DNA from: Bacteroidota bacterium
GTDB taxonomy: Bacteria > Bacteroidota > Bacteroidia > Bacteroidales > JACABE01
NCBI GenBank assembly: GCA_026391675.1
Contig: JAPLDQ010000043.1
Coordinates: forward strand, 1 to 64,000
Length of the DNA: 64,000 nucleotides
Reading direction: 5' to 3'
A program made the translations under genes and the position numbers. The notes beneath the pieces are model-generated. The model did not search any database. It was given only the letters and a program-made list of their open reading frames with translations, and had not been told where the DNA came from. Below are positions 6,716-38,905 of the stretch, piece by piece. The first letter of the stretch is position 1. Each line of letters starts with the position of its first letter.

Positions 6716-9559
6716 ATGAAAAAATCCTGTATCCTTCTTTTCTTTTGTGTGTTTATGGTGCAATTAAACGGACAGGAGATTGCCCTAAAACAAACAGAAG
6801 CTGCCAAACATGTAATGGAAAGAGTTTTGGGAGAAGCTGCCAAAGCCTTTCGGTTTGTAAATACTGAACAGAACGATGGGCTTGATTCTTATGAGGTTCA
6901 TGCAAAAAATGGCAAAGTAACGGTGTTTGGTTCAGGGACTATAGCCATGTGCCATGGTGCTTATGATTATCTGCGTAAAGCTTGCCATTTCCAGTATACC
7001 TGGAGCAGTAATCTTGCTGTTCCAACAGTTTTTCCCGATTTTGATATCGCAAAAATCACATCACCTTACAAAATGAGGCAGTATTATAATGTTTGCACCT
7101 ATGGTTATTCTACTGCTTTCTGGGGATGGGACGAATGGCAGCGGGAACTCGACTGGATGGCTTTGCATGGCATTAATATGCCCATTGCCATGATAGGGCA
7201 GGAAGCTATCTGGCAGAAAGTATGGAAATCTTATGGCATTTCCGATGCAGAACTGGATGCCTATTATACAGGTCCTGCATTTCTGCCCTGGCATCGAATG
7301 GGAAATGTGAATAAACATGGCGGTCCGGTTCCAAAATCCTATTTTGCAAAAAGTGTAATATTGCAAAAGCAATTGTTGCAGCGTATGCGTGAACTGGGTA
7401 TGATGCCCATAGTACCTGCATTTTCAGGTTATGTGCCTGATGTTTTAAAAAGAGTAATGCCCGAAGTTGGCATTTTAGACATGAAACCCTGGTGCGGTTT
7501 CGACAAAGATTACGGCACTCATATGTTATTGCCGGATACCAAACGTTTTACTGAAATCGGCAAGAAATTCATTGAAGAATATACCAAAGAATTCGGTCCT
7601 TGTAAATATTATCTTGCTGATGCTTTTAATGAAATGACAGTTCCCGTTAAAAATGACAGATACAAGGAATTATCAGATTTTGGCAGGGCAATTTATCAGA
7701 GTATTCATCAGGCCGACAGTAATGCAATCTGGGTAATGCAGGGCTGGTTATTTTTCAACGACAAGGGATTTTGGGATAAACCTTCCGTTCAGGCTTTCCT
7801 GAAAGATGTTCCTGATAATAAAATGATTATTATCGACCTGGCTAACGAATCATTTCATGGCTGGCAGGAACAAAATGCTTTTTATGGGAAAAACTGGATC
7901 TGCAGTTATATCCATAATTATGGCGGCAAAACGCAATTGGGAGGTAATCTGGCTCTTTTTGCAGGTGATGCCCCTAAAATGCTGGCCAATCCTGCTCATG
8001 GTAAACTCTGTGGATTTGGAATCTCACCGGAAGGCATCAATCAGAATGAAGTAGTGTATGAATTGCTTACTGATGTTGCCTGGGCTGATAAACCTATTGA
8101 TCTGGACCAATGGATAGATATGTGGAGTAAATCCCGCTATGGATTTTGTAATCCCGAAATTAAGAAAGCCTGGAATTATTTATTAAAATCAGTATATGGA
8201 AACGATGGCTATCATGCTCCTAATCTTTATCAGTTAAGACCTTCGTTAAACCTCGAACACCAGATTTATATGCCAGATGAATTGGATAGTGTTTTTACAC
8301 CTTTTGCAAATAAAGGTTATGATTTATTGAATAATGAAATGATAAACAATGATGGAAATGAAATAGAAATTTATATGAAAGGGATAAGGATAGATTTTTA
8401 TTTAAATAAGGCCATACAGTATTTCAAGAATAAAGAATTTGTAAAATCAAAAGCAATGTTTGAAAGAGCATTTTACATAATGCACAATATTAAAAATTCA
8501 TTTTTTATAAATTCAAAGCCTGAGTTGGCACAATGGGTTGAACTTGCGAAAAACTGGGGGAATAACAATAATGAGAAAGATTACTACGAAGAACAGGCAA
8601 AGCGACAGATTACCGTTTGGGGAGGACCTGTTTTATCTGAATATGCCTGTAAAACCTGGAGTGGATTGATATACAGTTATTATTTACCTCGCTGGCAGAT
8701 TTTTTATAATCATCTTTTCAATAATGGTAAAGATACGATTCAACAATGGGAAGAAAAATGGATTACAACTGCAGCTAGTTATAGCAAATTGGATACAGTA
8801 AAAAATAATATGGAAATTAATAGCAATGATGATTACATGGATTTGGATAAATATAAAAATTACATAAACATCTATGCTGAAAATCAAAAATCTGGTAAAT
8901 TTCTAATAAATATAGATTCCAAAGATAAAAATCTGGACATTTTTTATACTACTGATGGCAGCACACCCACCATTAAATCGCTTAAATACAAAAAACCTTT
9001 TGATGCAAAACCTAGTATGATAATAAAAGCTCAGCCTTTTAAAAATGATGAAGAATATGGCGAAGAAGCTGAATTAAAATTATCACTCTCACTCAATAAG
9101 ATAGTAATTTTGAAAGAAGCTGCTGATGGCAGGTACAAAGCCAAAGGAGCCGCTTCATTAACCGATGGTATTTTCGGAACAAGCGATTATAAAGATGGGA
9201 AATGGCTGGGGTTTGAGGGAAAAAATATGGAAGCTAAAATTGATCTGGGCTCAGTACAGGTGATTCATAATATTGGGATAAATTATCTTGTAAATACAAA
9301 TTCATGGATATTTGCGCCCACTTCATTCAGTATTGAAGTCTCTGATGACGACAAATCATATAAGAAATTATCGGAAGCTGTTCTTGAATATAAATGTTCA
9401 GGAAATGATAATCAGAAAATTTGTTCCGTTTCAACTGGACAAAACTTCAGAACAAGATATGTAAAAATTAAGGCAATCAGCCCTAAAATTTGTCCCGAAG
9501 ACCATCCCGGTGCAGGGCAGAAGTGCTGGATATTTATTGATGAAATAACGATAAAATAA
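6716..9559 (+). CDS. Exported alpha-N-acetylglucosaminidase, GH89 (NAGLU family)
   Basis: This enzyme would cleave terminal alpha-linked N-acetylglucosamine from glycans such as heparan-type or mucin chains. The signal peptide MKKSCILLFFCVFMVQLNGQ has no lipobox, so a periplasmic location is likely; there is no T9SS sorting domain. The order is an N-terminal alpha/beta domain, then a (beta/alpha)8 catalytic barrel with WGWDEWQRELDWMALHGIN, then an all-helical domain. The expected catalytic acids are Glu306 in LADAFNEM (acid/base; family equivalent of human Glu316) and Glu439 in SPEGINQNEV (nucleophile; human Glu446). After about residue 750 there is a chitobiase-type C-terminal module (IFYTTDGSTPT) and a discoidin/F5-8C carbohydrate-binding module (about 820-947). 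It converges on the NagB-PIG-L gene with a 4-base gap, consistent with a joint GlcNAc-salvage role. Confidence 0.93.
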   Translation: MKKSCILLFFCVFMVQLNGQEIALKQTEAAKHVMERVLGEAAKAFRFVNTEQNDGLDSYEVHAKNGKVTVFGSGTIAMCHGAYDYLRKACHFQYTWSSNLAVPTVFPDFDIAKITSPYKMRQYYNVCTYGYSTAFWGWDEWQRELDWMALHGINMPIAMIGQEAIWQKVWKSYGISDAELDAYYTGPAFLPWHRMGNVNKHGGPVPKSYFAKSVILQKQLLQRMRELGMMPIVPAFSGYVPDVLKRVMPEVGILDMKPWCGFDKDYGTHMLLPDTKRFTEIGKKFIEEYTKEFGPCKYYLADAFNEMTVPVKNDRYKELSDFGRAIYQSIHQADSNAIWVMQGWLFFNDKGFWDKPSVQAFLKDVPDNKMIIIDLANESFHGWQEQNAFYGKNWICSYIHNYGGKTQLGGNLALFAGDAPKMLANPAHGKLCGFGISPEGINQNEVVYELLTDVAWADKPIDLDQWIDMWSKSRYGFCNPEIKKAWNYLLKSVYGNDGYHAPNLYQLRPSLNLEHQIYMPDELDSVFTPFANKGYDLLNNEMINNDGNEIEIYMKGIRIDFYLNKAIQYFKNKEFVKSKAMFERAFYIMHNIKNSFFINSKPELAQWVELAKNWGNNNNEKDYYEEQAKRQITVWGGPVLSEYACKTWSGLIYSYYLPRWQIFYNHLFNNGKDTIQQWEEKWITTAASYSKLDTVKNNMEINSNDDYMDLDKYKNYINIYAENQKSGKFLINIDSKDKNLDIFYTTDGSTPTIKSLKYKKPFDAKPSMIIKAQPFKNDEEYGEEAELKLSLSLNKIVILKEAADGRYKAKGAASLTDGIFGTSDYKDGKWLGFEGKNMEAKIDLGSVQVIHNIGINYLVNTNSWIFAPTSFSIEVSDDDKSYKKLSEAVLEYKCSGNDNQKICSVSTGQNFRTRYVKIKAISPKICPEDHPGAGQKCWIFIDEITIK

Positions 9560-9563
9560 GACT

Positions 9564-11525
9564 TTATATTTTATACCTGACAAAGGCTTCAAAAGCTTCA
9601 TATTCAGCCATACCAAGCTGATTATATAAACGGGCTGTTGTGCGGTTACGTTCTTCGGCCCTTTGCCAGAATTCCCTGTCGTCAACACCAGGAAATAAAG
9701 CTTTATCTTTTTGTGACTGATGCTTAAATATTGCTTTTCTTTTCTTTGAAAGTTCATCAGGACTTAAAGGCACGGCCATATCAACATCACCGATATTCCA
9801 TTCCTGCCATGCACCTCTGTATAACCAGATATAGCAATCCTTCATCCATGATTCAGATTTCAAATGGGTTAAGGCTTTATTAATAGCATTCAGACAAACA
9901 CGGTGGGTGCCATGCGGATCCGAGAGATCACCTGCAGCATATATCTGATGCGGTTTAATTTTTTGCAATAAATCAATAATAATAGTAACATCAGCATCAC
10001 TCAATTCTTTTTTAACGACAGCACCTGTATCATAAAACGGCATATCCAGGAAAAATACATTTTCAGGTTTTACACCTACAAAACGGCAGGCAGCTTTTGC
10101 TTCACCTCTTCTAATCAATGTTTTCATCCGCTGGACTTCAATTGTATCTGTATCTCCCGGCGTTTTAAGAAATAAAGTCTTTCTTACCTTCGCATACAAT
10201 TCATCAATCAATACATTATTTATTTTGTATTCGTTGCTGAAATCCTTTACAAAATCAAGGTATCTTATCACATCATCATCGTGTACAGCAATACAACCTG
10301 AAGTTTGATATGCAGTATAAACCTCATGCCCTTGTTCTACCAGGCGCATGAAAGTACCACCCATCGAAATAACATCATCATCAGGATGAGGACTGAAAAT
10401 CAATACTTTTTTCGGATAAGGATTTGCTCTTTCGGGCCGGTTGGTGTCGTCTGCATTGGGCTTTCCTCCGGGCCAGCCGGTAATAGTATGTTGTAAATCG
10501 TTGAATATTTTAATATTGCATTTACTCGCAGCATCTTCATCAACCAATAAGTCAATCATGCCGTTTTCATTATAATCTTTATCGGTAAGTTTTAAAATAG
10601 GTTTCTCAACTTTCTGGCAAAGCCATAACACTGCTTTTCTAACCAGTTTTTCATTATTCCAGTCGCAGCTTTCAAATAACCATGGCGCTTCTACTCTTTT
10701 TAAATCTGCTGATGATGCATCATCCAGCAACGCTACTACATTTTGATGAAGCTGTAAATATGAAGCCGGAATCTGACTGTTTATATCACCTTCAATTGCA
10801 TTTTTTATTATTTTCGATTTTCCTTCACCAAAGGCTAAGAGTAATATCCTTTTAGCCTTTAAAATGGTTGAAATGCCCATAGTAATTGCTCTGCGCGGAA
10901 CATTAACCTCGCCATAGAAATCGCTGGCTGCATCTTTTAAAGTAGTATAGGCTAAAGTAATTGTTCTTGTGTTTGAATCTGCTGCAGAACCTGGTTCGTT
11001 AAATCCAATATGACCGTTTCTTCCGATACCCAGAATCTGTAGATCAATTCCACCGTATGAATCTATCTTTTTCTCATATTCATTACAATACTCAATTATC
11101 TTGTTTTTTGAAACAGTTCCATCTGGTATATTTACATTTTCGGGTTTAATATCTATATGATCAAACAAATGTTCTTTCATAAATCTGACATAACTCTGCA
11201 ATGCGTCGGGTTTCATCGGATAATACTCATCAAGGTTGAAGCATACAACGTTCTGAAAACTTAAGCCTTCTTCCTTATGCATGCGTACGAGTTCTTTGTA
11301 TATCTTTGTTGGAGTTGAACCTGTTGCCAATCCAAGTATTGCAAAATTGTTTTCTTTTTGTTTTTTAACAATTAAACTGGCAATTTCTATTGCTATTATT
11401 TTTTCAGCATCTTTATAATTTGAAAATATTTTGGTAGGTATTTTCTCAAAAGGATATTTTATAACATTATCAGGTAATATTACAAAATCTGAATTAATAT
11501 TTTGATGATTATCAGGGTATTCCAT
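9564..11525 (-). CDS. nagB: NagB-like glucosamine-6-phosphate deaminase fused to a PIG-L/LmbE-type deacetylase (653 aa)
   Basis: Residues about 20-285 are a NagB/RpiA/SOL isomerase domain. It has FNLDEYYP (Asp of the deaminase active site) and GIGRNGHIGFNEPGS (His and Glu of the catalytic triad). The position that is Asp141 in E. coli NagB is Asn here. Residues about 370-653 are a PIG-L-family zinc-dependent N-deacetylase with FSPHPDDDVISMGG and a later DPHGTH motif. A plausible reading is that one polypeptide performs GlcNAc-6-P deacetylation and GlcN-6-P deamination to fructose-6-P. The deacetylase substrate is inference. The protein has no signal peptide and is cytoplasmic. Similar-length fusions are known in Bacteroides. 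It lies tail to tail with the GH89 gene that would release GlcNAc. A TAnnTTTG box lies just upstream. Confidence 0.88.
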   Translation of the reverse strand: MEYPDNHQNINSDFVILPDNVIKYPFEKIPTKIFSNYKDAEKIIAIEIASLIVKKQKENNFAILGLATGSTPTKIYKELVRMHKEEGLSFQNVVCFNLDEYYPMKPDALQSYVRFMKEHLFDHIDIKPENVNIPDGTVSKNKIIEYCNEYEKKIDSYGGIDLQILGIGRNGHIGFNEPGSAADSNTRTITLAYTTLKDAASDFYGEVNVPRRAITMGISTILKAKRILLLAFGEGKSKIIKNAIEGDINSQIPASYLQLHQNVVALLDDASSADLKRVEAPWLFESCDWNNEKLVRKAVLWLCQKVEKPILKLTDKDYNENGMIDLLVDEDAASKCNIKIFNDLQHTITGWPGGKPNADDTNRPERANPYPKKVLIFSPHPDDDVISMGGTFMRLVEQGHEVYTAYQTSGCIAVHDDDVIRYLDFVKDFSNEYKINNVLIDELYAKVRKTLFLKTPGDTDTIEVQRMKTLIRRGEAKAACRFVGVKPENVFFLDMPFYDTGAVVKKELSDADVTIIIDLLQKIKPHQIYAAGDLSDPHGTHRVCLNAINKALTHLKSESWMKDCYIWLYRGAWQEWNIGDVDMAVPLSPDELSKKRKAIFKHQSQKDKALFPGVDDREFWQRAEERNRTTARLYNQLGMAEYEAFEAFVRYKI

Positions 11526-17853: not shown

Positions 17854-20800
17854 GTGAAAAAAAATTCAATTTTATTCATTATTGCCCTATGCTTTATTAT
17901 CAAGCTAAACGGCCAGACTCCCAAAAATATTAAAATCATTAATTCTAAAGATCTGATAAAAAAAGGTAGCGATCTTTATGATGACGACAAGTTCGATGAA
18001 GCTTATGATATTTATAAATTGATTCCCAAAAATGATACAAATTATAGTATAAGTCTGTATGAACAGTGTCTTACATTGGTTGGCGCAAAAAAATATGATG
18101 AAGCTATTGCATTGGCTTCTAACACGCTTAAGTATAATTATCTTATAAATGATAAAACACAGCTATATTCAATTTTAGGTAATGCTTTGGATAAAGCAAA
18201 GAAATTTGACGAATCAGTTGAAGTTTATAATAAAGCAATAGCTGAGTTTCCTTATAATAATCAGCTTCATTATAATTTAGCACTGAGTTACTTTAGAAAT
18301 GATCAGTTAGATAAGGCAGAAGAAGTGCTTTTTACTTGTTTAAAATTAAATACTTTTCATCAGGCAAGTCATTACTTACTTGGATATATTAACTTAAAAC
18401 GGGGTAAATTGGTACCTGCCATTATGGCATTTAATACAAGTATTCTATTAAATACTTCTTCAAAAATGGGAAATACAGCCCTGAAAACATTGGAAAATCT
18501 TTATAATGGTGAATTGGATGGGGAAATGTTAAAAGAAAAGTTTTCCTTTCCTGAAAAATATGATAATCCTTGTTTCGATGAAATCGAACCATTGATAAAA
18601 TCAAATTTTGCAATGAATAAAAAATATGAAGTAAAATCAAAATTATCGACCATAGTTGTAAAAACAGATCATCTGGTTTTCGAAAAACTTAAAAAATCTG
18701 ATAATAAAGACGTATATAATCAATTTTACTTACCTTTTTATTCTTTAATGATGTCAGAAGGTTATTTTGAAGGATTTAGCTATTTTATCTTTTCAGGAAT
18801 TGACAATGAGGATGTAAAAGCATTTATGGAAAAAAACAAATCCAAACTTAAAAAGTTTCAGGATTGGGCGGTTGGCTATATTGTACAAAAGAGAATGTAT
18901 CAATTAGATACTGAAAATGAAAAAAAAGAAGGGATAAAATATTTTTATAATGATGATGATAAACTATATGCATTTGGAAATTTCACTAAAGGCAAAACCC
19001 CTTTAAAAACTGGTGAATGGAGTTATGTGAATAAATTAGGATCATTAGAATCCTTCGGAGATTTCGTAAAAGATAAAAAAGAGGGAAAATGGAAGTCATA
19101 TTATTTAAACGGAAAATTAAAAGAAGATTTAAATTATAATAATTCCGATTTAGATGGCTTTTGTTTTAAAAATTATAATAATGGAGAAATTAATATAAGA
19201 GCAAATTTTAAAAATGGTAAATTAGACGGAGAATACAGTGAATATAATACATCGGGCGTAATCTCAGAAAAAACAAAATATATAAATGGATTGATTGAAG
19301 GTAAATACCAGAATTACTTTGCTCAGGGACAGTTATATAGTGAAACAGAATATAAAGGAGGGAAAAAAGATGGAAGTTACAGGCGTTACTTTATAAACGG
19401 AAATATTGACCAGGAAGCTTCTTATAAAAACAATATGGTAAATGGTAAATATATAGAATTTTTTCAGAATGGAAATATTTACGCTGAAGGAGAATATAAG
19501 GATGATATGAGAGTGGGTTATTGGAAAGAATATTACTATAATAAACAACTAAAAGAAGAAGGTAAATATGACGATAAAGGAAGAAAAGTTGGCGTTTGGA
19601 AAACATATTTCACAAATGGTGTATTAGAACAGGAAGAAACTTTTTCTTTAAATGGAAAACAGAATGGCAATTCTAAAAATTATACTAAAAATGGCGAACT
19701 CTTATATACATATACATTTAAAAATGAATTATTAACAGAAATAACTTGCTATAACAAGGCAAAAGCAGAAATTGGGAAATATGTCGAAAAAAAGGGTAGT
19801 ATCGATTTTAAATTATTTACAATTGATGGGAAAATAACATTAGAAGGATTGCTTAAAAATGGTTCAAAAGAAGGATTATGGAAAAAATATGATGTAAATG
19901 GCATCCTCTTATCCGAAGAAAATTATAAAAATAACAACTATCAGGGTGCTGTAAAAACATTTTATAAAAACGGGAATTTAAAATCTTACTGCGAATACGA
20001 AGAAAATGAAAGAAATGGCTTATTTCAATCCTTTTATAAAGATGGTACACTTAAACAGGAAGGCTACTATAACAAAGGAAATGCAGAAGGCAGCTGGTAC
20101 AGTTACCATGATAACGGGAACTTTAGTGAAATAAACAATTATCTGAAGGATAAATTAAACGGATATCAGGAAACATTTGATTATTTTGGTAAGAAAAGCG
20201 TTGAATCATATTATAGCAACGATTTTATGATTGACAATTCAAGAATTGATACCAATGGAAATATTTATAACCGCGATAGCTTAATAAATGGGAATGGTTT
20301 GATTAAAAGAAAAAATCTAAACGGAACCCTTGCTCAAACAGCCTTATATCTTGCAGGAAACTGGAAAGATACGGTTTACAATTATAATTATACAGGTGTT
20401 AAAATATATGAAGGAAAATATATAAATGGACGTAAAGACGGAGTACATAAATGGTATTTCGATAATGGGATGTTACAAACCGAATCAACTTATAATTACG
20501 GAGAAGAAGAAGGCGTAAGCAAAACCTATGATATCAAAGGGAAATTAATGGTTCAAACAACATACCTGAATGGAAGAACAGAAAATATATCCTATTTTTT
20601 CCCTAACGGCAAACCCGAACTCAGTATTGAATATGAAAATGGAGAAAGAAACGGTTATACCAAATACTATACACCTGATGGTCAATTTGCATACCAGGTT
20701 TTATTTAATAATGCTACACCTGTTTCCTACAGTTATAAAGGAAAAGATGGTAAAATGACTGAAGAAAAGCCAATACTTAAAGATAACGGGAAAATTATTG

Positions 20801-21165
20801 CTTATTTTCAAAACGGTGTAAAATCAGCTGAAGTTTATTATAAAAACGGTGAACGGAATGGAAAGTTTATTTTATACTTCCCTAATGGTGCAAAAAGAGA
20901 AGAAAATAACTATAAAGACGACCTGTATGATGGTACAAACCGCGAATGGAACCTGCAAGGTGTACTTATTTCCGAAACACAGTTTTCAAAAGGCAATTTT
21001 TCAGGATATAAAAAATTATTTTATGATAATGGAAAAATTGAAATGGAAGCACATTATATAAATGACGACCTCTACGGAACATGTATTTATTATGATAAAA
21101 ATGGTAAGAAAATTAAAATACTAAACTATCATCATGATGAGTTATTAAATGAAGTTAACTTTTAA
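17854..21165 (+). CDS. Exported TPR protein with a long MORN/YwqK-type repeat array (1103 aa)
   Basis: The start is a GTG at 17854. It is the only in-frame start after the upstream stop at 17806-17808, and it gives the signal peptide MKKNSILFIIALCFIIKLNGQ. Residues about 30-215 contain tetratricopeptide repeats (YDEAIALASNTLKYN, FDESVEVYNKAIAEFPYN), a protein-interaction scaffold. From about residue 375 to the end there are roughly thirty copies of a 22-24-residue motif, for example YFINGNIDQEASYKNNMVNGKY, of the MORN_2/YwqK ('antitoxin component') family. The repeats run to the C-terminus with no sorting domain, so the product is probably periplasmic or attached to the outer membrane from inside. 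It heads an operon with two DUF3857-transglutaminase genes (33-base gap). The molecular function of such arrays in Bacteroidota is not established. Confidence 0.85.
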   Translation: MKKNSILFIIALCFIIKLNGQTPKNIKIINSKDLIKKGSDLYDDDKFDEAYDIYKLIPKNDTNYSISLYEQCLTLVGAKKYDEAIALASNTLKYNYLINDKTQLYSILGNALDKAKKFDESVEVYNKAIAEFPYNNQLHYNLALSYFRNDQLDKAEEVLFTCLKLNTFHQASHYLLGYINLKRGKLVPAIMAFNTSILLNTSSKMGNTALKTLENLYNGELDGEMLKEKFSFPEKYDNPCFDEIEPLIKSNFAMNKKYEVKSKLSTIVVKTDHLVFEKLKKSDNKDVYNQFYLPFYSLMMSEGYFEGFSYFIFSGIDNEDVKAFMEKNKSKLKKFQDWAVGYIVQKRMYQLDTENEKKEGIKYFYNDDDKLYAFGNFTKGKTPLKTGEWSYVNKLGSLESFGDFVKDKKEGKWKSYYLNGKLKEDLNYNNSDLDGFCFKNYNNGEINIRANFKNGKLDGEYSEYNTSGVISEKTKYINGLIEGKYQNYFAQGQLYSETEYKGGKKDGSYRRYFINGNIDQEASYKNNMVNGKYIEFFQNGNIYAEGEYKDDMRVGYWKEYYYNKQLKEEGKYDDKGRKVGVWKTYFTNGVLEQEETFSLNGKQNGNSKNYTKNGELLYTYTFKNELLTEITCYNKAKAEIGKYVEKKGSIDFKLFTIDGKITLEGLLKNGSKEGLWKKYDVNGILLSEENYKNNNYQGAVKTFYKNGNLKSYCEYEENERNGLFQSFYKDGTLKQEGYYNKGNAEGSWYSYHDNGNFSEINNYLKDKLNGYQETFDYFGKKSVESYYSNDFMIDNSRIDTNGNIYNRDSLINGNGLIKRKNLNGTLAQTALYLAGNWKDTVYNYNYTGVKIYEGKYINGRKDGVHKWYFDNGMLQTESTYNYGEEEGVSKTYDIKGKLMVQTTYLNGRTENISYFFPNGKPELSIEYENGERNGYTKYYTPDGQFAYQVLFNNATPVSYSYKGKDGKMTEEKPILKDNGKIIAYFQNGVKSAEVYYKNGERNGKFILYFPNGAKREENNYKDDLYDGTNREWNLQGVLISETQFSKGNFSGYKKLFYDNGKIEMEAHYINDDLYGTCIYYDKNGKKIKILNYHHDELLNEVNF

Positions 21166-21198
21166 TTTTTATCAAAATTATCATAATAAAATTAAAAC

Positions 21199-23145
21199 AT
21201 GAATCTTAAAAAACGAATATTCATTTTTCTTTATTTATCATTTATTACACCATATTTAATTGGGCAACAGGTAGATAAAGAATTGGAATTGTATAAATCT
21301 ATTTATCCTGATGAAGATGCAATTACAATATTGCATTCTACCTCGATCGAAATTACGTTGAAAAATAATAAACCAATAATTACAGAATCTGCCAAGGAAC
21401 AATCGCTTTTATTAACTAAAAGATCCGCTGTTTTAAATACAGCTCATGTGGGCTATTCTTTTTTTAATAAAGTTATTGAATATGAAGCCTTTACACTTGT
21501 TCCAGTTGATAATAAATATAAAAAAATGGAAGTCAAAGATATTGAAGACTTCAAAGAAGACAATAACAGTATATTTTATGACGATAGTAAGGTTAAAAAG
21601 TTCATTTTTCCTGGTTTAATTCAGGGGGCCAAAACCTATTTGAGCTATACTATCCAGCATAATGAACCCTGGTTATGGGGAAATTATATCTTTACTAATG
21701 GAGGTTCTCCGGTTGAAGATATGGATGTAAGCCTTGTTTTTCCTGATAAAGTAAAAATAGTCTGGAAAGTTATTAATGATGATTCTTCAAAGATTAGTTT
21801 TACTGAAATTAAAAAGGGTAAAAAAACAATCTACCAATGGAAAGCACATAAACTACCAAAAATAAAATTTGAGGACAACGGACCCAATTATAAATGGTAT
21901 ACACCTATACTTATGATTGGTATTGCTGAATATATTGATGATGATAACAATACCGTTAAAATGATGGGAAGTCATAAAAGCCTCTATAAATGGTACAGGA
22001 AAATGATTGATAATTCCAAAAATGAAGTTATTCCTGAAATGAAAGCCATTGTAGATTCATTAATATCCCCGAATGACAGCGAAAAAGAAAAAGTTAAAAA
22101 AATATATTATTGGTCGCAACAAAATATCAGTTATGTGGCTTTTGAGGATGGTTATGCAGGTTTTACTCCGGGTAATTCGCAGGATGTATTTACCAAAAGA
22201 TATGGTGATTGCAAAGGAAAAGCAAATCTTTTGAAAGCCTTACTTGGAATTGCCAATATTAAAAGTTATCTCACCTGGATAGGAACAACGCATTTACCCT
22301 ATAAGAGAGATGATATTCCAGGTAAGCCTGTAGATAATCATATGATAGTAACCTATATTGGGGTTGATGGGAAATATTATTTTCTGGACCCTACAGATGA
22401 TTTTATCTCAATGGAATTTCCAACTTCATTTATACAGGGAAAAGAAGCATTTATTGCGCTAAGTGATACAGATTATAAAATAGTTACAGTTCCGGAAATT
22501 GAAAGTGCCAGAAATACTATCTCTGACGCTATGACAATTAAAATTGATAAAACTAAGCTGATTGGCAGTGGCAATGTAACATCTCATGGATATAACCATT
22601 TTTTGATTGCAAACTCTTTTAAAACCCTGCCTTATGATAAACAAAAATTAATTTTCTATAATATATTTAATAAGGGAAACAATAAATTTATTCTGGATAC
22701 ACTAACAGTTATAAATTTTAATTCACCTGACAGCAATGTTCAACTTATTTATAATTATACTATTCCTGATTATATTACTAAAATGAACGATAAAATATTT
22801 GTCAACTTAAACCTTGATAAATTGAGGCATTATAAGAATATTAATTGCGATGACAGACAATGTGGTGTTTTTTGGCAATACAAAGAAATTCTTGATTTTA
22901 AATATCAACTTGAAATTCCGGCAGGTTACACTGTAGAAAGTATTCCTCCTGATTCTTATTATGATAATCCTGAATTCGGATATAAAATAAAATATACTCA
23001 AATAAATAATCAGATTATTCTTGAAAAAAAATTATACTCTGCTTTTCATTTACTTGAAAAATCAAAAATTCCAATTTGGAATGCAATGATTAAAACCTTT
23101 GATAAATCTGTTAATCAATCTGTTGTACTTAAGAAAAACAATTAA
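21199..23145 (+). CDS. Exported DUF3857/transglutaminase-like protein with intact catalytic triad (648 aa)
   Basis: The signal peptide is MNLKKRIFIFLYLSFITPYLIGQ. An N-terminal beta-rich DUF3857 domain (about 45-260) is followed by a transglutaminase-like papain-fold core (about 285-420). Cys338 in RYGDCKGKANLLKALL, His381 in PVDNHMIVTY and Asp397 in YFLDPTDD form the expected Cys-His-Asp triad. A C-terminal beta domain of the DUF3858/DUF2569-associated kind follows (about 440-640). Family members may cleave or crosslink peptides; the substrate is unknown. It lies in an operon between the MORN-repeat gene and a second, catalytically dead paralogue that starts 25 bases after this stop. Confidence 0.85.
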   Translation: MNLKKRIFIFLYLSFITPYLIGQQVDKELELYKSIYPDEDAITILHSTSIEITLKNNKPIITESAKEQSLLLTKRSAVLNTAHVGYSFFNKVIEYEAFTLVPVDNKYKKMEVKDIEDFKEDNNSIFYDDSKVKKFIFPGLIQGAKTYLSYTIQHNEPWLWGNYIFTNGGSPVEDMDVSLVFPDKVKIVWKVINDDSSKISFTEIKKGKKTIYQWKAHKLPKIKFEDNGPNYKWYTPILMIGIAEYIDDDNNTVKMMGSHKSLYKWYRKMIDNSKNEVIPEMKAIVDSLISPNDSEKEKVKKIYYWSQQNISYVAFEDGYAGFTPGNSQDVFTKRYGDCKGKANLLKALLGIANIKSYLTWIGTTHLPYKRDDIPGKPVDNHMIVTYIGVDGKYYFLDPTDDFISMEFPTSFIQGKEAFIALSDTDYKIVTVPEIESARNTISDAMTIKIDKTKLIGSGNVTSHGYNHFLIANSFKTLPYDKQKLIFYNIFNKGNNKFILDTLTVINFNSPDSNVQLIYNYTIPDYITKMNDKIFVNLNLDKLRHYKNINCDDRQCGVFWQYKEILDFKYQLEIPAGYTVESIPPDSYYDNPEFGYKIKYTQINNQIILEKKLYSAFHLLEKSKIPIWNAMIKTFDKSVNQSVVLKKNN

Positions 23146-23170
23146 TATTAATCTTTATAATAAACTTACT

Positions 23171-25144
23171 ATGAAAAAAATATTTTATTTGCTACTGTTT
23201 TTATCTTTAACACAGATTGGAAAAGCACAAAAAAGTCAATATTTACCTTATGGTTTTAAAAAAATCCAGACACTAACAGCAGCCGAAGATGAAAAATTTA
23301 AAAAACATGGTTCACTTGTTTTAAATGAAACCAGAATTATTGATTTTTCCTATAATGAAAAACACATACTGGAATGCAATTTTATCTATCATTTAACGAC
23401 CAAAGTCTATAACCAGAATGGGATTGATGATAATAACCGTATTTATCTTAGTCTGGACGAAGAAAATGAATTAATTGATCTGAAAGCAAGATTTATATCA
23501 AAGGATAATAAAATAACGGAAGTAAATAAAAATAACATCAAAACTGTTGAAAATCTGGAAAATAAAGGTGATTATAAAATATTTGCTATTGAAGGCGTTG
23601 AAGTTGACGGCATAATCGATTATTATTATGTAATCAAAAGACCGGCTTCTTTATATAAAGGATATTATTTGCAATCCGATGTACCTAAATATAATGTAGA
23701 TTTAACTATATCGTTACCCAGTAATCTTCGAATGGTTACAAAATCATATAACGGATTAAACGATATGAAAGATACTTTAAGAGAAGATATTGAAAAAAGG
23801 ATTTATACACTTAATGTAAAATTTATTCCAGAATTGGAATCAGAAAAATATTCCATGTACAAATCTAATCTTCAAAGACTTGAATATGTAATTTGCTATA
23901 ATTATAACAAAAACAGGACAAGATTTTATACCTTTAATGAGGCTGCACAAAATTTCTATGAAAATATAAATAATATTGAAAAACCGGAACAAAAAGCAAT
24001 AAAAAAGCTTATTTCTGAAGTGAATATCAGCAATAAATTATCTGCAGAAGAAAAGATAAGAAAAGTTGAAATTTATGTTAAAACGCATATCAGCTATATT
24101 AAAAAAGATGGCCCTGAATTTTCTAATATTGAAAAAATATGTACAAATAAATATGCAAATTCACATGGATTTACGACGCTATTTCTGAATATTTTTAAAG
24201 AACTGGAAATTGATGCACAACCGGTAATTACCTGTAATAAAGCGGAAAAAGAATTTGATAAAAATTTTGATTCATGGAATAGTTTAACTGATAATTTGAT
24301 TTATTTTCCGGAGATTAAAAAATTTATGATTCCTGATCATTGGGCTTATCGCCTAGGTTTTATTCCGGATAGTTTTATTGATAATTTCGGATTGTTTTTT
24401 AAACGTACAAAAGTTGCAGATATAGAATCGTATATACCTGAACTTAAGCGTATTTCAGTTCCAACTTATCAGGAAAGTGCTGATAGTATATTTTTAGAAG
24501 TTAATTTTATTGATGATTATACCAATAGTAAATCTAAACTCAGAAGAGTACTTACCGGATATTCTGCTTCTGAAATACAGCCATATTATAAAATACTTGA
24601 AGCAGATTCAAAAAAGGATATATTAAAACAATTTGCTGCATTAGGAATAGAAACTGCTAAAACAGAAAATCTTAAAATTGATAATATTGAAACCGAAGAT
24701 TTTTTTGTAAAACCATTTATACTTAATTGTGATATCGAAAATCCGGGATTTGTCGAAAAAGCAGGTGCAAATTTATTGGTTAAAGTAGGTGAAATGATCG
24801 GCCCTCAGGCAGAATTATACAATGAAAAGAAAGAAAGAAAGTTAGACGTTGTTCATGACCATAACAGGCATTATTATCGTAAATTGGTCATTCATTTACC
24901 AAAAGGGTTTAAACCACAAAATTTAAACGATTTTAATATGAATGTAAATACTAATGATGGTGATTTCCCTTCTGCAGCATTTATTTCAAAAGCAAGTATC
25001 AATGGTGATGTATTAGTTATAGATATGATAGAATATTATTCAAAAATGAAATATAAAGCATCAGAATATGAAGTGTTTAGAGCTGTAATTAATGCAGCTG
25101 CAGATTTTAATAAAAAAACATTAATCTTTTCAGAAAAGTTATAA
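23171..25144 (+). CDS. Exported DUF3857/transglutaminase-fold protein lacking the catalytic triad (657 aa)
   Basis: I chose the ATG at 23171 because it gives a clear signal peptide, MKKIFYLLLFLSLTQIGKAQ. An upstream ATG at 23099 overlaps the previous gene and adds a charged, non-signal extension. The architecture matches the preceding gene: DUF3857 region, transglutaminase fold and C-terminal beta domain. The catalytic Cys, however, corresponds to Ser331 in KYANSHGFTTLF. The His region reads LTDNLIYFPE with no His, and the Asp region reads FMIPDHWA. It is therefore predicted to be an inactive pseudoenzyme, perhaps a partner or regulator of its active neighbour. The operon ends at a strong terminator at 25181. 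Confidence 0.82.
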   Translation: MKKIFYLLLFLSLTQIGKAQKSQYLPYGFKKIQTLTAAEDEKFKKHGSLVLNETRIIDFSYNEKHILECNFIYHLTTKVYNQNGIDDNNRIYLSLDEENELIDLKARFISKDNKITEVNKNNIKTVENLENKGDYKIFAIEGVEVDGIIDYYYVIKRPASLYKGYYLQSDVPKYNVDLTISLPSNLRMVTKSYNGLNDMKDTLREDIEKRIYTLNVKFIPELESEKYSMYKSNLQRLEYVICYNYNKNRTRFYTFNEAAQNFYENINNIEKPEQKAIKKLISEVNISNKLSAEEKIRKVEIYVKTHISYIKKDGPEFSNIEKICTNKYANSHGFTTLFLNIFKELEIDAQPVITCNKAEKEFDKNFDSWNSLTDNLIYFPEIKKFMIPDHWAYRLGFIPDSFIDNFGLFFKRTKVADIESYIPELKRISVPTYQESADSIFLEVNFIDDYTNSKSKLRRVLTGYSASEIQPYYKILEADSKKDILKQFAALGIETAKTENLKIDNIETEDFFVKPFILNCDIENPGFVEKAGANLLVKVGEMIGPQAELYNEKKERKLDVVHDHNRHYYRKLVIHLPKGFKPQNLNDFNMNVNTNDGDFPSAAFISKASINGDVLVIDMIEYYSKMKYKASEYEVFRAVINAAADFNKKTLIFSEKL

Positions 25145-32952: not shown

Positions 32953-34872
32953 TTAACGTTTTACAACGATTAATTTATCGGTAAGCTGAGCACTTGGTGT
33001 TTTGAGTGTATAGAAATAAGTACCGCTTGTAAAGCCTGTTAAATCTAAATCAAAGCCGTAATTACCTTTGGATTGTATACCTCTGTTGATATTTTTCACA
33101 ACTCTGCCAGTAATATCAGTAATGATAATGCTTACATTTTCATTCTTTTTCAATTCATAGGCAATTCTGGTAGATGTATTTGCCGGATTAGGCATACAAC
33201 TAAATAAATTGGCAGATCTTTCGATTTCATTAATACCCACTTGATTACTCCAATGATAATATTGATTAAAAATAGTACGAATCATAACAGCTGACATATT
33301 TACAGCTCCACCATACCAAACATACCATGCGTTATTCGTTGGATCATAATATAAAGATGTTTGTCCGTATTGTGCACAGGTATTATCTGTTGCTATTTTA
33401 ACTGTATCAGAACCACCATCAATCTGAAGACCTACAAGGTAAAGAGAGTCTGGTTGCATTAAATAAGGTGTAGAAAATGGTAAAGAAATTGCCGGTGGAT
33501 TTGCACCTGTTGCAGTAGGAATATCTGTTGCAGACAAATAATAATTAGTTGATTGAGCTACTATGGTTCTGTCACCGGTTACACTGTATAAATATATAAG
33601 TCCTTTAACTTTGGAACCAATTTTGGTATCCTTACTTACAACAAACTGAACACCATATGCCAACCTGTTTGTATCTACCTCATATTTTACAGTCGGATTA
33701 AATGGAACAACTGAACCGCTGGTTACCGAACGCCATTGTGATCCGCTGTAAGAGTTATTATCCCTTGAATACATACAAGTATCACATACTATTTTTATGG
33801 CTACAGTATCTCTTGAAATTCGTGGAATTGAATCGGTTGAAATATAGGATGTAACTTTATAAGTTCCCAGTGTTTTACCTGGTGTGAAAAAATAATTTGT
33901 ATTCCACATCCAGGTTGGTGATGAAGTCTTTCTGACAATACTGTACCCAGGTGCTAAATTAGTATCTATACTAACAGAATCAGCGCCTGTAGTCAGATCA
34001 ACACCATGCAATTTGGTATGTTTTTGAGGTAAACCTCCGATATTTGTTATTTCAGCATCGTAATATACCGGAATTCCTAATCCTGAAGGAATTTGAGTAT
34101 ATAAATTTTGTAGTGTTACTCTATCTACCTGTAATTGATTTGGTAAGGGTTCAAATAATTCAACATCATCAACTGCCCATCCGTAACCACCTCCATATTG
34201 TGATCCGCTTGAAGTTGAAGCAGGAGCATACCATCTGAATCTTATCCATAACTGTGGTTTATTTGCAGCATATTGAGAAATGTTTATTTGTTTAAATCCA
34301 TATACATAGGAATTTGTTGAAGCAGAACCTCTGATATTAATAGTGTTCCAGTTAACATTATCGCTGCTGATTTCAAGTAAAGCAGAGTCAGCATTAAATG
34401 GCTTGTATAATTGATAAAACTTAATACTTACAGAATTATAACCAGATGTGTTGATAGCAACAGCATTGGTTAAAGTGGAATTTGAAATGCCATAAGTTTG
34501 TGCTATCAGGTTGGTAATCCCATCAAAATATGCCATACCCTGCATAGGAGTATTTGATTTCATGTATAAATCCGGATGTACATAAGCTTTAAATGTTGAT
34601 GAAAATGCTGTTGTATCAGCTATCCATTCCCAGGTATTTAAAATATTCGCATCCTGACCGATTTTTGCAGCAACCCACTGACTGGGATTATTAAAATTAG
34701 ATGACCAGATTGTAACTTTTGAGTTTGAGGTTACGTTCTTTTTTAGATATTGATCAAGATTTTGGTTATCATCCTGACCTTGGCTAACAGCTAAAGGTAT
34801 AATATTTGTTTGCCCAAAACTAATAGTACCACTTATTACAAGTAATACAATAAAAGATAAAATTTTTCTCAT
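32953..34872 (-). CDS. T9SS-secreted protein with jelly-roll and CxxCxYSRDNN domains, paralogue 1 (639 aa)
   Basis: The signal peptide is MRKILSFIVLLVISGTISFGQ. Residues about 45-245 are a jelly-roll module of the 'choice-of-anchor' type ending in GGYGWAVDDVELFEP. A CARDB-like module follows (about 245-355). At about 362 the motif CDTCMYSRDNN opens an unnamed beta domain (about 362-550). The last 85 residues (LFSCMPNPANTSTRI...TSGTYFYTL) are a type A T9SS sorting domain. It is secreted across the outer membrane and probably surface-attached. Function is unknown. It is very similar throughout to the next gene and shares its last three domains with the third. Confidence 0.85.
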   Translation of the reverse strand: MRKILSFIVLLVISGTISFGQTNIIPLAVSQGQDDNQNLDQYLKKNVTSNSKVTIWSSNFNNPSQWVAAKIGQDANILNTWEWIADTTAFSSTFKAYVHPDLYMKSNTPMQGMAYFDGITNLIAQTYGISNSTLTNAVAINTSGYNSVSIKFYQLYKPFNADSALLEISSDNVNWNTINIRGSASTNSYVYGFKQINISQYAANKPQLWIRFRWYAPASTSSGSQYGGGYGWAVDDVELFEPLPNQLQVDRVTLQNLYTQIPSGLGIPVYYDAEITNIGGLPQKHTKLHGVDLTTGADSVSIDTNLAPGYSIVRKTSSPTWMWNTNYFFTPGKTLGTYKVTSYISTDSIPRISRDTVAIKIVCDTCMYSRDNNSYSGSQWRSVTSGSVVPFNPTVKYEVDTNRLAYGVQFVVSKDTKIGSKVKGLIYLYSVTGDRTIVAQSTNYYLSATDIPTATGANPPAISLPFSTPYLMQPDSLYLVGLQIDGGSDTVKIATDNTCAQYGQTSLYYDPTNNAWYVWYGGAVNMSAVMIRTIFNQYYHWSNQVGINEIERSANLFSCMPNPANTSTRIAYELKKNENVSIIITDITGRVVKNINRGIQSKGNYGFDLDLTGFTSGTYFYTLKTPSAQLTDKLIVVKR

Positions 34873-34977
34873 TTTAAATTAAGTTAAATTAAACAATATT
34901 TTTTGATTGATAAAAGTAATACATTTTTTTAGCTAAAACAATATTTTATTTAAAATTTTATTAAAATAATGAAAATA

Positions 34978-35010
34978 AAAAGGCTGGTATGTATAACATA
35001 CCAGCCTTTT
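34978..35010 (-). terminator. Terminator after T9SS paralogue 2
   Basis: A perfect 14-base-pair stem has arms AAAAGGCTGGTATG and CATACCAGCCTTTT and loop TATAA, 20 bases beyond the stop at 35031. The stem repeats that of the terminator at 32902 with a different loop. Confidence 0.88.
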
Positions 35011-35030
35011 ATTATTTATATTTAAGAGAA

Positions 35031-36938
35031 TTAACGTCTTACAACAATTAATTTATCTGTTGCCTTAGCAGTTGGGGTTTTTAAAGTATAGAAATAAGTA
35101 CCGCTTGTTAAGCTGGTTACATCAATATCTAAAGTATAATTACCTTTAGTTTGCATACCCTGGTTGATATTTTTAACAACTCTGCCTGTAATATCAGTAA
35201 TGATTATATTTACATTTTCGTTCTTTTTCAACTCATAAGCAATTTGAGTAAAAGTATTAGCCGGGTTAGGCATGCAAGAGAATAAGCTAACTGAATTTTG
35301 AACTTCATTAATTCCTACTGCATCCCAATGGAAATTCTGATTGAATACTCCACGTATCATAACAGCTGGAACATTGCCCGGAGCCCAAAGATACCACATA
35401 TTTGCTGTTGGGTCAAAGTATAATGAAGTTTGTTCGTATTGAGGAATACCTGTATTATCCAATGCCATTTTTACAGTATCAGTGCCACCATAAACCTGAA
35501 TACCTATCCAGTAAGTAGAGTCCTTTTGCAATGTATAACCATTTGTAAATGCAAGATTGATAGCAGGTGGATTTACCATTGGAGCAGTTGTTGGGATTTT
35601 ATCAGCTGTGATATAATAGTTGTTAGATTGAGCAACAATAGTTCTTGAAGCAGATCCGGCAAAATATTTGTATAAAACGGCTCTGATTTTTGAATTAACT
35701 TTTGTAGCAATATTTACAACACAATTAACACCGTACATCATTCTGTCAGCATTTACCAAAGTTCTGTTAACAGCAGTATATGGGTCGCAGGTTGTTCCTG
35801 TAGTTTCTGCCCATCTTGAGCCAACATAAGTATTATTGTCTCTTGAGTATTTACATGTATCGCAAACAATTTTAATATCAAAAGTATCCTGTGCTAAAAC
35901 AAAAGGAAGAGAATCTGTTGAAATATAGGAAAATACTTTATATGTACCAATAGTATGATTCATTGGGAAGAAAAGGTAATTATAAATTGACCAACCTGTA
36001 ATACTTGTACCAGGATTAATGGTAGTATCAATGCTAATTGAATCAGCATGTGTGGTTAACTCAACACCATGTAATTTTAAATGAGTTTGGGTTTTAGCTC
36101 CAAGATTTGTAAAATCTGCATCATAATACATAGGTCTGCCAATTCCGTTTGGTATTTCTGTATATCCATCATACATCGTAGCTCTGTCAACTATAATGTT
36201 ATTATTAGCCGGTTCAAAAACTTCAACATCATCTAAAGCCCAACCGTAACCGCCACTATATGCAGGATTACCACTAACTGTAGCAGGTGCATAAAATCTG
36301 AATCTAACCCAAAGATTTGTTTTGTTTGCAGCCCATGGTGTAATATTTATTTCTTTCCATCCACGGGTAAGTGTATTAACTGCAACAGTAGGATTAACGT
36401 CAATAGAATGCCAGTTAGATCCATCACTGCTTATTTCTAAAAGGGTAGAATCCTGATTGAAAGCAGCATACATTTGATAAAATTTAATACTTACTGCCAT
36501 TTTGCCTGTAGTGTTGATTGCTACTGCGTTAGTTAATGTTGAATTGGAAATTCCATAATTAGATCCAGCCAGATTAGTAATTGCATCAAAATAAAACAGA
36601 CCCTGAGCTGGTGTATTTGAACGTACACCTTTACCCATATAAGAAACCCAGGTAGATGAAAATGAATTTGTATCAGCTATCCATTGCCATGTATTTGTAA
36701 TATTAGCACTCTGATCAGATAATTTTGCAGCTACCCATTGACTGGCTGTTGCCATATTTGATAACCATATAGTAGCTTTTGAGTTAGTTACTACATTTTT
36801 ATTAAAATATTGTTCAAGCCCTTGATATTCTCCTTCTTGAAATTGACGAATAGTTGTGGGTTTTACATTTACAGTTTGCCCAAAACTTAATGTACCACTT
36901 ATAGCAAGTAATACAATAAAAGATAAAAATTTTTTCAT
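35031..36938 (-). CDS. T9SS-secreted protein with jelly-roll and CxxCxYSRDNN domains, paralogue 2 (635 aa)
   Basis: The signal peptide is MKKFLSFIVLLAISGTLSFGQ. Domain order is as in paralogue 1: jelly roll ending GGYGWALDDVEVFEP, CARDB-like module, the CDTCKYSRDNN domain from about residue 358, and a type A sorting domain (LFSCMPNPANTFTQI). Both genes are followed by the same terminator stem, and the gaps on either side of this gene are equal (158 bases). This points to tandem duplication of a whole gene-plus-terminator unit. It has its own promoter at 36979. Function is unknown. Confidence 0.85.
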   Translation of the reverse strand: MKKFLSFIVLLAISGTLSFGQTVNVKPTTIRQFQEGEYQGLEQYFNKNVVTNSKATIWLSNMATASQWVAAKLSDQSANITNTWQWIADTNSFSSTWVSYMGKGVRSNTPAQGLFYFDAITNLAGSNYGISNSTLTNAVAINTTGKMAVSIKFYQMYAAFNQDSTLLEISSDGSNWHSIDVNPTVAVNTLTRGWKEINITPWAANKTNLWVRFRFYAPATVSGNPAYSGGYGWALDDVEVFEPANNNIIVDRATMYDGYTEIPNGIGRPMYYDADFTNLGAKTQTHLKLHGVELTTHADSISIDTTINPGTSITGWSIYNYLFFPMNHTIGTYKVFSYISTDSLPFVLAQDTFDIKIVCDTCKYSRDNNTYVGSRWAETTGTTCDPYTAVNRTLVNADRMMYGVNCVVNIATKVNSKIRAVLYKYFAGSASRTIVAQSNNYYITADKIPTTAPMVNPPAINLAFTNGYTLQKDSTYWIGIQVYGGTDTVKMALDNTGIPQYEQTSLYFDPTANMWYLWAPGNVPAVMIRGVFNQNFHWDAVGINEVQNSVSLFSCMPNPANTFTQIAYELKKNENVNIIITDITGRVVKNINQGMQTKGNYTLDIDVTSLTSGTYFYTLKTPTAKATDKLIVVRR

Positions 36939-36978
36939 TTTTTTTATAAGGTTAAATTAAACATTTTTTTTAGGTTGA

Positions 36979-37008
36979 CAAAAGTAATACTAATTTATTC
37001 AATAGCAA
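36979..37008 (-). promoter_or_regulatory. Promoter of T9SS paralogue 2
   Basis: On the reverse strand a -7 TACTTTTG (36986-36979) and a -33 TTG (37008-37006) are 19 bases apart. The same block upstream of paralogue 1 (34911-34918) reads TACTTTTA, one mismatch from consensus. A GTTAAATTAAAC stretch between promoter and start is shared by both genes. Confidence 0.5.
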
Positions 37009-37042
37009 TAAAATTTGACAAAATTAAAGTTAAAATTTATTG

Positions 37043-37077
37043 AAAAAGGCTGACAATTAAAACTATCAGCCTTTTTT
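37043..37077 (-). terminator. Terminator after T9SS paralogue 3
   Basis: An 11-base-pair stem has arms AAAAAGGCTGA and TCAGCCTTTTT with a 12-base loop, 20 bases beyond the stop at 37097. The GGCTG core is shared with the terminators of the other two paralogues. Confidence 0.85.
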
Positions 37078-37096
37078 AAACAGTTTATTTTAATTA

Positions 37097-38905
37097 TTAT
37101 TTTACAATAAATAATTTTTCAGTAGCTTTATCAGTAGAAGTTTTAATTGTGCAGAAATAGGTCCCACTTGTAAGTGAATTCAGGTCAATATCTAAATTGT
37201 AATTGCCTTTATTTTGAGTTCCCTGATTGATATTTCTGACAACTCTACCCATAATATCCGTAATAATGATATTTACTTTATCATTGGTTTTTAATTCATA
37301 GCTAATTTTAGTGCTTGATGATGCAGGGTTAGGCATACAAGAAAATAAATTAATACTTGAATTTCTAACTTCATTCACACTTATAGAAGGATCAAAAGAT
37401 AAACGAATAATAGATGCATCTACATTGCCATAATTCCATATATACCAGGTATTTGCTGTAGGATCAAAATATAATGAAGTTTGTTCCCATTGTGGTATTC
37501 CTGTATCATCAGTGGCAATAGTAACAGTATCTGTTCCTCCATAAACCTGAATTCCTGCAAAATATAACGAGTCTGTTTGAATTTGATAGCTGGATGTAAA
37601 AGCTAAAGAAATTAAAGGAGGATTATTCATTGGAGCTGAAGCAGGAATATCTGCAGCAGTAATATAATAGTTATTGGATTGAGCAACTATAGTTCTTGAA
37701 TTTGAGCCTGCAAAATATTTGTATAAAACAGCTTTGATTTTTGAACCCACTTTTGTTCCAATTCCAACTGCACATTTAATTCCATAAGCTGGTCTGTCCT
37801 GTTTAACCTGAAATCTGTTTACTGCAGTAAATGGATCAGCTGTAGTTCCTGTAGATCCTGCCCATCTTGAACCGGTATAGGTATTGTTATCCCTTGAGTA
37901 ATCGCAGGTATTACATACCACATTAATATTGAATGTATCTAATGAAACACGTGGTAATAAATCGCTAGATAAATAAGAAGATACTTTAAAAATACCCTGA
38001 GTAGTAGGTGGTGTATAAAAATAATTATTAATAGACCAGTCAGTAATTCCTGTATTAGGTGAAATTGTAGTATCGATACTGGTTGAATCTATCCCTGTTC
38101 CAATTACCACAGCATGCAGTTTTACATGTGTTTGTGTATTAACTCCAAAATTTGAAATATCAGCATCATAATACATAGGCATCCCTAAACCTGTAGGAAC
38201 CTTAGTATATCCATCATGTAAAGTAATTCTGTCTGCTGTTAAATTATTTAATGGCATATCACCGATAAAAATATCATCAACGTCTAAACTGGCGCCATCA
38301 GTACCCTGATACTGAAATGCAACTTTAAAATTAGTACTGGTTGAATAAGCATTTAACATGATAAGTTTTTGATACCAGGTAAAACTTGTAAAAACACCTG
38401 CACTGTCTTCAGTAAAAATAGTTGTCCAGGTAGTTCCTCCGTTTGTACTTACCTTTACTCTGAAATCATAATTGTTATTAGGACTAACACTCCAGTAATA
38501 ACTCATATTCCACCAGAATTTTATACAAGGATTAGTCAGTGTAGTCAGATTATAAGAAGGACTGATTAACCATTCATTCTGGGCTGCTGGTGCAGGATCA
38601 TACTCAATAAATGCATCCTTAGCTCCAGAGTGAGGATAAGTTCCAACTTTCCATTGATACAACGCATTGGTATTACCACTTTGTTTTGTCCATCCGGTTG
38701 GAGGGAATGCTGTTCCTTCAAATCCTTCACTAACCAATGTAGCTTTAGTATTGGAAGTAACATTTTTTTGTAAATACTGGCTAAGATTCAGAAAGCTACC
38801 GCTTTTATTCGGGTTGCTTTTTGATGGTCTGATATCTAAGTTCTGAGCAAAAATAAACGAACTGCTAAATGCAAGCAATACGATTATAAGGAATAGTTTT
38901 TTCAT
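37097..38905 (-). CDS. T9SS-secreted protein, paralogue 3 with a different N-terminal module (602 aa)
   Basis: The signal peptide is MKKLFLIIVLLAFSSSFIFAQ. Residues about 55-220 are a 'choice-of-anchor J'/cleaved-adhesin jelly roll (SEGFEGTAFPPTGWTKQSG ... LDVDDIFIGD), unlike the N-terminal module of paralogues 1 and 2. From about residue 225 onward it follows them: CARDB-like module, CNTCDYSRDNN domain from about residue 330, and a type A sorting domain (LFSCMPNPASSSTKI). The hybrid layout suggests that the N-terminal module was exchanged. Function is unknown; a carbohydrate- or protein-binding surface role is plausible for such jelly rolls. Confidence 0.85.
   Translation of the reverse strand: MKKLFLIIVLLAFSSSFIFAQNLDIRPSKSNPNKSGSFLNLSQYLQKNVTSNTKATLVSEGFEGTAFPPTGWTKQSGNTNALYQWKVGTYPHSGAKDAFIEYDPAPAAQNEWLISPSYNLTTLTNPCIKFWWNMSYYWSVSPNNNYDFRVKVSTNGGTTWTTIFTEDSAGVFTSFTWYQKLIMLNAYSTSTNFKVAFQYQGTDGASLDVDDIFIGDMPLNNLTADRITLHDGYTKVPTGLGMPMYYDADISNFGVNTQTHVKLHAVVIGTGIDSTSIDTTISPNTGITDWSINNYFYTPPTTQGIFKVSSYLSSDLLPRVSLDTFNINVVCNTCDYSRDNNTYTGSRWAGSTGTTADPFTAVNRFQVKQDRPAYGIKCAVGIGTKVGSKIKAVLYKYFAGSNSRTIVAQSNNYYITAADIPASAPMNNPPLISLAFTSSYQIQTDSLYFAGIQVYGGTDTVTIATDDTGIPQWEQTSLYFDPTANTWYIWNYGNVDASIIRLSFDPSISVNEVRNSSINLFSCMPNPASSSTKISYELKTNDKVNIIITDIMGRVVRNINQGTQNKGNYNLDIDLNSLTSGTYFCTIKTSTDKATEKLFIVK

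Follow-up and report, generated by a model that had tools for sequence, protein, structure and literature searches.

Three genes lie in the same orientation (+) at 17854-25144 of the window, by which we mean the whole 64-kb stretch of DNA that was analyzed, and their products are referred to here as P1, P2, and P3 (Table 1). The list of open reading frames places them next to each other with intergenic gaps of 33 and 25 bases, so that the coordinates and gaps given in the initial annotation were found again. The longest reading frame of P3 begins with a TTG at 23099, and its start was taken at the ATG at 23171 because both the signal segment and the orthologues agree with that codon. Similarly, the homologues of P1 align from the same start as its GTG. 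The genes had also been described as sharing one promoter and a strong terminator. A stem of 15 bp followed by a T run was indeed found behind P3, while the promoter match before P1 is suggestive only, because the loose pattern recurs 10 times on both strands of the 64-kb window. Both sites are consistent with a single transcript, and together with the close spacing they suggest that the three genes would be cotranscribed.

Table 1. Positions of the predicted genes, protein regions, catalytic codons, and transcription signals in the window.
Feature	Position	Strand	Basis
Promoter match of Bacteroidetes type, TTTG-N18-TATATTTG, 67 bases upstream of P1	17757..17786	+	Pattern match
P1, exported TPR-MORN repeat protein, 1103 aa	17854..21165	+	ORF with GTG start; Pfam TPR and MORN_2; colinear full-length orthologues; model
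P1 TPR helices, aa 31-217	17944..18504	+	Model; top PDB matches are TPR domains
P1 MORN ribbon, aa 362-1102, 62 strands/31 hairpins	18937..21159	+	Model
P2, exported DUF3857-transglutaminase-fold putative enzyme, 648 aa	21199..23145	+	ORF; Pfam; triad in 89/89 orthologues
P2 Cys338 codon	22210..22212	+	Invariant in P2
P2 His381 codon	22339..22341	+	Invariant in P2
P2 Asp397 codon	22387..22389	+	Invariant in P2
P3, exported DUF3857 predicted pseudo-transglutaminase without the triad, 657 aa	23171..25144	+	ORF; Pfam; full-length homology to P2; Cys 0/95; model
Terminator-like stem-loop (15 pairs) with T run, 36 bases downstream of P3	25181..25221	+	Consensus scan

Sec-type signal segments were recognized by eye in P1, P2, and P3, in agreement with the signal peptides reported before. 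The signal segments of the three window proteins contain no Cys, so they are not classed as lipoproteins, and the lipobox motif is rare among their relatives (1/65 P1, 5/89 P2, and 4/95 P3). No Pfam match to a type IX sorting domain (Por_Secre_tail or CHU_C) was obtained for P1-P3, unlike other proteins of the window, in which such domains are present. These include a secreted giant of 4559 aa (46966-60645, +) that combines beta-helix, Ig-like, and CARDB regions with a sorting tail of type IX, and three consecutive proteins of 602-639 aa (32953-38905, -) whose only Pfam match at the threshold used is the sorting tail. Elsewhere in the window, an alpha-N-acetylglucosaminidase (NAGLU) gene (6716-9559, +) adjoins a gene (9564-11525, -) coding for a 653-aa protein with Glucosamine_iso and PIG-L (GlcNAc-PI de-N-acetylase) domains.

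P1 matched tandem MORN_2 repeats in Pfam (8e-38, 124 bits, cut-off 29.6), as well as TPR. In its predicted model (mean pLDDT 89.6), the TPR helices are followed by a helical linker and then by 62 consecutive strands, and the 31 hairpins that these form agree well with the roughly thirty MORN copies counted earlier. At about 4.8 angstrom per strand, the ribbon would be about 30 nm long. The MORN region, measured without a sequence-length filter, spans 729-749 aa across 72 proteins, a spread smaller than one 24-residue repeat, whereas identity within the P1 family is only about 27%. The possibility that each repeat retains its own identity was set aside, because the repeat at the same position ranked first in only 20% of cases, compared with 3% expected by chance, a weak signal. 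P1 scored 127.7 bits with the NCBIfam equivalog for the LIC20035 family adhesin, below its cut-off of 250, and NCBIfam gave no name above cut-off for P1, P2, or P3.

P2 matched both DUF3857 (7e-13, 49.4 bits, cut-off 24.6) and Transglut_core (3e-7, 31.3 bits, cut-off 23) in Pfam. The residues Cys338, His381, and Asp397 singled out in the initial annotation are all present, and this triad was kept in 89/89 P2 sequences when these were aligned together with 95 P3 sequences. Gln307 is likewise invariant in P2, and the strongly conserved positions fall mostly in the catalytic core. The core match and the triad make P2 a putative active member of the transglutaminase-like superfamily, for which the best reading, as yet unproven, is a cysteine peptidase or an acyl-transferase. 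Many bacterial members of the transglutaminase fold are thought to be proteases. P2 may either hydrolyze or cross-link, two activities that sequence alone does not distinguish. Single-sequence PDB searches with P2 and P3 returned nothing useful, and beyond these two proteins no further DUF3857 match was found in the source genome (4.04 Mb, 48 contigs).

P3 also belongs to DUF3857 (3e-11, 44.1 bits, cut-off 24.6), with a weak match to Transglut_core (2e-5). It had been described as lacking all three catalytic residues, and Ser331, Asp374, and Ile387 are indeed aligned with the triad of P2. Among the 95 P3 sequences, none has the triad Cys (0/95), 13 have the His, and 2 have the Asp; the nucleophile position is occupied by Glu, Lys, Asp, Ser, Arg, and others, none of them conserved. 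The position of P2 Gln307 holds Lys in 89/95 sequences, and the invariant residues of P3 include Glu300 and Lys304. As judged by the missing triad, P3 is a member of the transglutaminase fold and not a predicted active one. Its model (mean pLDDT 92.2) has an N-terminal domain resembling parts of the oligosaccharyltransferase complex and the N domain of M1 aminopeptidases. In pairwise comparisons of close relatives, the dN/dS of P3 ranged from 0.03 to 0.31 and was mostly lower than the P2 value for the same two relatives, which places P3, like P2, under purifying selection. The strongly conserved positions of P3 lie mostly in the C-terminal domain, outside the old cleft. Such a pattern is that of a maintained pseudoenzyme, one that would act outside that cleft.

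P2 and P3 are homologous over 620 columns in a profile comparison, and they form two clades (support 99 and 100) that go back to one ancient split. This split is older than the divergence between the lineage with the trio and a lineage with only the pair, in which P3 has about 740 aa. In this sister lineage (L045, L047-L051), P2-P3 pairs occur without an adjacent P1, and the dead twin is longer, at about 731-754 aa. Three of these loci (L047, L048, and L049) have, next to the pair, a gene for a small exported protein (about 210-250 aa).

The search for a conserved neighborhood that the initial annotation had proposed was carried out, and the trio was found across Bacteroidota, so it is not unique to the source genome. 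A protein search for P2 in 198 genomes of the source order found full-length relatives, and 10 of the loci that were fetched (L033-L041 and L044), from nine families of that order, contain the trio with its order and orientation kept, with small gaps and with unrelated flanks. When the P3 alignment was used to scan named genomes, 457 relatives were obtained. Among the best 80 of these, selected by the P3 C-terminal motif, rich in Hymenobacter, and not independent of each other, a six-frame profile search identified 60 trios, 10 P2-P3 pairs without P1, 7 loci truncated at the end of a contig, and 3 in which P3 lies apart. One of the last (L077) is a trio according to the ordinary gene list, which changes the counts to 61 trios and 2 loci with P3 apart. 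The 80 loci belong to Bacteroidales, Flavobacteriales, Chitinophagales, and Cytophagales, the last with Hymenobacter, Chryseolinea, Sporocytophaga, and Cesiribacter. Clustering of the flanking genes gave no fourth partner, as conservation of the flanks went no further than synteny within the genera Hymenobacter and Chryseolinea.

When each profile was run against a phylum sample of 395 genomes, 7 genomes had P1, 13 had P3, and 26 had P2, and the absences are uncertain because just 2-3 candidates per genome were scored. The nesting was strict: every genome with P1 also had P3, and every genome with P3 also had P2 (hypergeometric 6e-12 and 1e-17, kinship being ignored). All 7 copies of P1 were contiguous with both P2 and P3, and several genomes carried P2-P3 without P1. 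P2 and P3 were unlinked and both kept in one genome (G387), and in another (G600) P1-P2 was unlinked from P3 with all three kept. At one locus (L103), P3 had no adjacent P2. Chance clustering of the three genes is ruled out by the conservation of the trio, and the unit that had been read from this locus, a repeat protein together with an exported enzyme and its pseudoenzyme twin, is maintained across Bacteroidota.

Taken together, our results suggest as the likeliest reading, at somewhat below even confidence, that P1, P2, and P3 form one exported assembly with P2 as its catalytic part, P3 as a pseudoenzyme partner, and P1 as a scaffold. The assembly would most likely be located in the periplasm. 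P2, a transglutaminase/papain-fold Cys-His-Asp enzyme, would be the sole catalytic part and would cut or transfer peptide (amide) bonds, while P3, as an ancient and selectively maintained partner, may bind P2 or its substrate and regulate or position P2. The N-terminal TPR domain of P1 may be the docking site for a client peptide or for the P2-P3 pair, and the ribbon of 31 hairpins may set a distance or offer an extended binding surface. We infer the physical complex, the TPR docking, the ribbon as a spacer, the location, and the type of chemistry. The assembly is favored by the contiguity of the trio in nine families and in 60-61 of the best 80 of 457 loci from four orders, by the strict nesting of P1 in P3 in P2, and by the retention of partners even when they are unlinked. 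It is also favored by the intact triad of P2 against the missing Cys of P3, by the single old split between these full-length homologues, by the low dN/dS of P3 and the conservation inside the cleft in P2 but outside it in P3, and by the near-fixed length of the ribbon. Fusions of TPR, DUF3857, and transglutaminase domains point the same way, and they are weak evidence because TPR domains are common fusion partners. The P3 without an adjacent P2 speaks against the assembly, and P1 is not essential to the P2-P3 pair, since ten of the best 80 of 457 loci and several sample genomes have the pair without it. Coinheritance of an operon is not proof of contact between its products. A more specific version, in which an active/inactive P2/P3 heterodimer of the transglutaminase fold sits on the ribbon, with its fixed length of about 30 nm, as on a ruler or rail in the envelope and serves peptide processing or cross-linking, is rather unlikely at this stage.

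The most serious competitor of the assembly, unlikely but well ahead of the other alternatives, is that the three proteins are co-regulated yet separate and act on the same envelope material without a stable complex. P3 would then bind peptides or glycans, and P1 would be a ribbon resembling an adhesin. Such an arrangement would account for the dispensability of P1 to the P2-P3 pair in some lineages and for the conservation of P3 centered on its C-terminal domain. It would also suit the LIC20035 adhesin model, which matches P1 below cut-off, and the MORN_2 proteins discussed elsewhere as adhesion or virulence factors in papers on Fusobacterium. However, it does not sit easily with the strict nesting in the phylum sample and the retention of unlinked partners, or with P2 and P3 being paralogues of equal length that have been adjacent since their ancient split.

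Other alternatives concern the roles of single members. P3 might still be an enzyme using other residues in or near the old cleft, as its invariant Glu300 and Lys304 and the Lys at the position of P2 Gln307 could suggest, but its catalytic position has no conserved nucleophile and its strongest conservation lies in the C-terminal domain, which makes this improbable. The loss of all three catalytic residues would also be expected of a functionless, decaying duplicate of P2. This reading is hardly credible and was rejected, because P3 is full-length across lineages, has a dN/dS that is far below 1 and in most pairs lower than in P2, and has one ancient origin. MORN proteins of this kind are commonly named "YwqK family antitoxin" in databases, and the MORN_2 type of the P1 repeats would fit a toxin-immunity module in which P2 is an exported toxin and P1 its protector. 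That is very improbable, as P2 occurs without P1 in ten of the best 80 of 457 loci and in several sample genomes, all three proteins are predicted to be exported, and a fixed-length ribbon of 31 hairpins would be atypical of immunity proteins.

The families of P1, P2, and P3 are each already known. In the open-access literature, we found no description of the conserved trio, of the phylum-wide pairing of enzyme and pseudoenzyme, or of the fixed-length ribbon, and no functional study of DUF3857; the statement that no described pathway joins the three families thus held there. The occurrence of the trio in widely separated Bacteroidota points to a putative undescribed machine in the cell envelope. 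The conservation of the trio is striking, and the function is what we infer. The trio offers a first testable partnership for DUF3857 proteins, and an example of an enzyme and its long-split inactive twin that are associated with a repeat scaffold of stable length. Should the complex prove real, it would give access to a so far undescribed step of envelope biology in a phylum rich in uncultured members, and cultured carriers exist in Chryseolinea, Hymenobacter, and Cesiribacter.

The best whole-chain match of the P3 model was 3KD4 (BDI_1141 of Parabacteroides distasonis, "putative protease"), a DUF3857 protein with the transglutaminase fold that is alike throughout (Z 23.4, rmsd 4.2, 476 residues). 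To our knowledge, it has no MORN partner. It differs by an identity of only about 11%, matches the P2 and P3 profiles weakly in sequence, and, when aligned to the P2 profile, carries Pro in place of the catalytic Cys. It is listed among the transglutaminase-like cysteine proteases (PMC4866520), and given this Pro the label "putative protease" may be wrong. The core of the P3 model is also similar to the TGase structure 4XZ7 (Z 10.7). P2 matches the Transglut_core superfamily (PF01841) and retains its Cys-His-Asp, and it differs from that superfamily at large in its association with DUF3857, with a catalytically dead paralogue, and with a MORN scaffold. The ribbon of P1 resembles the tandem beta-hairpin ribbons of the MORN1 rods of apicomplexan parasites and trypanosomes (6T4D, 6T69, 6T6Q, and 6T4R), with a Foldseek target TM-score of up to 0.57; unlike these rods, P1 is a single exported protein with a fixed number of 31 hairpins behind a TPR domain. 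An Rhs/teneurin shell was rejected for P1, as its better Foldseek E-values came with TM-scores near 0.1, indicating local hairpin similarity only. Long open frames considered as P2-P3 fusions (Rosetta stone) proved to be TPR-DUF3857-transglutaminase fusions and not enzyme/pseudoenzyme fusions. Four such single chains of about 1250 aa (L161-L164) combine TPR, DUF3857, and a transglutaminase core with an intact GDCK motif, and they differ from the trio in having neither a MORN ribbon nor, in the stretches read, an adjacent dead twin. They show that TPR and DUF3857-transglutaminase modules are able to work in one chain.
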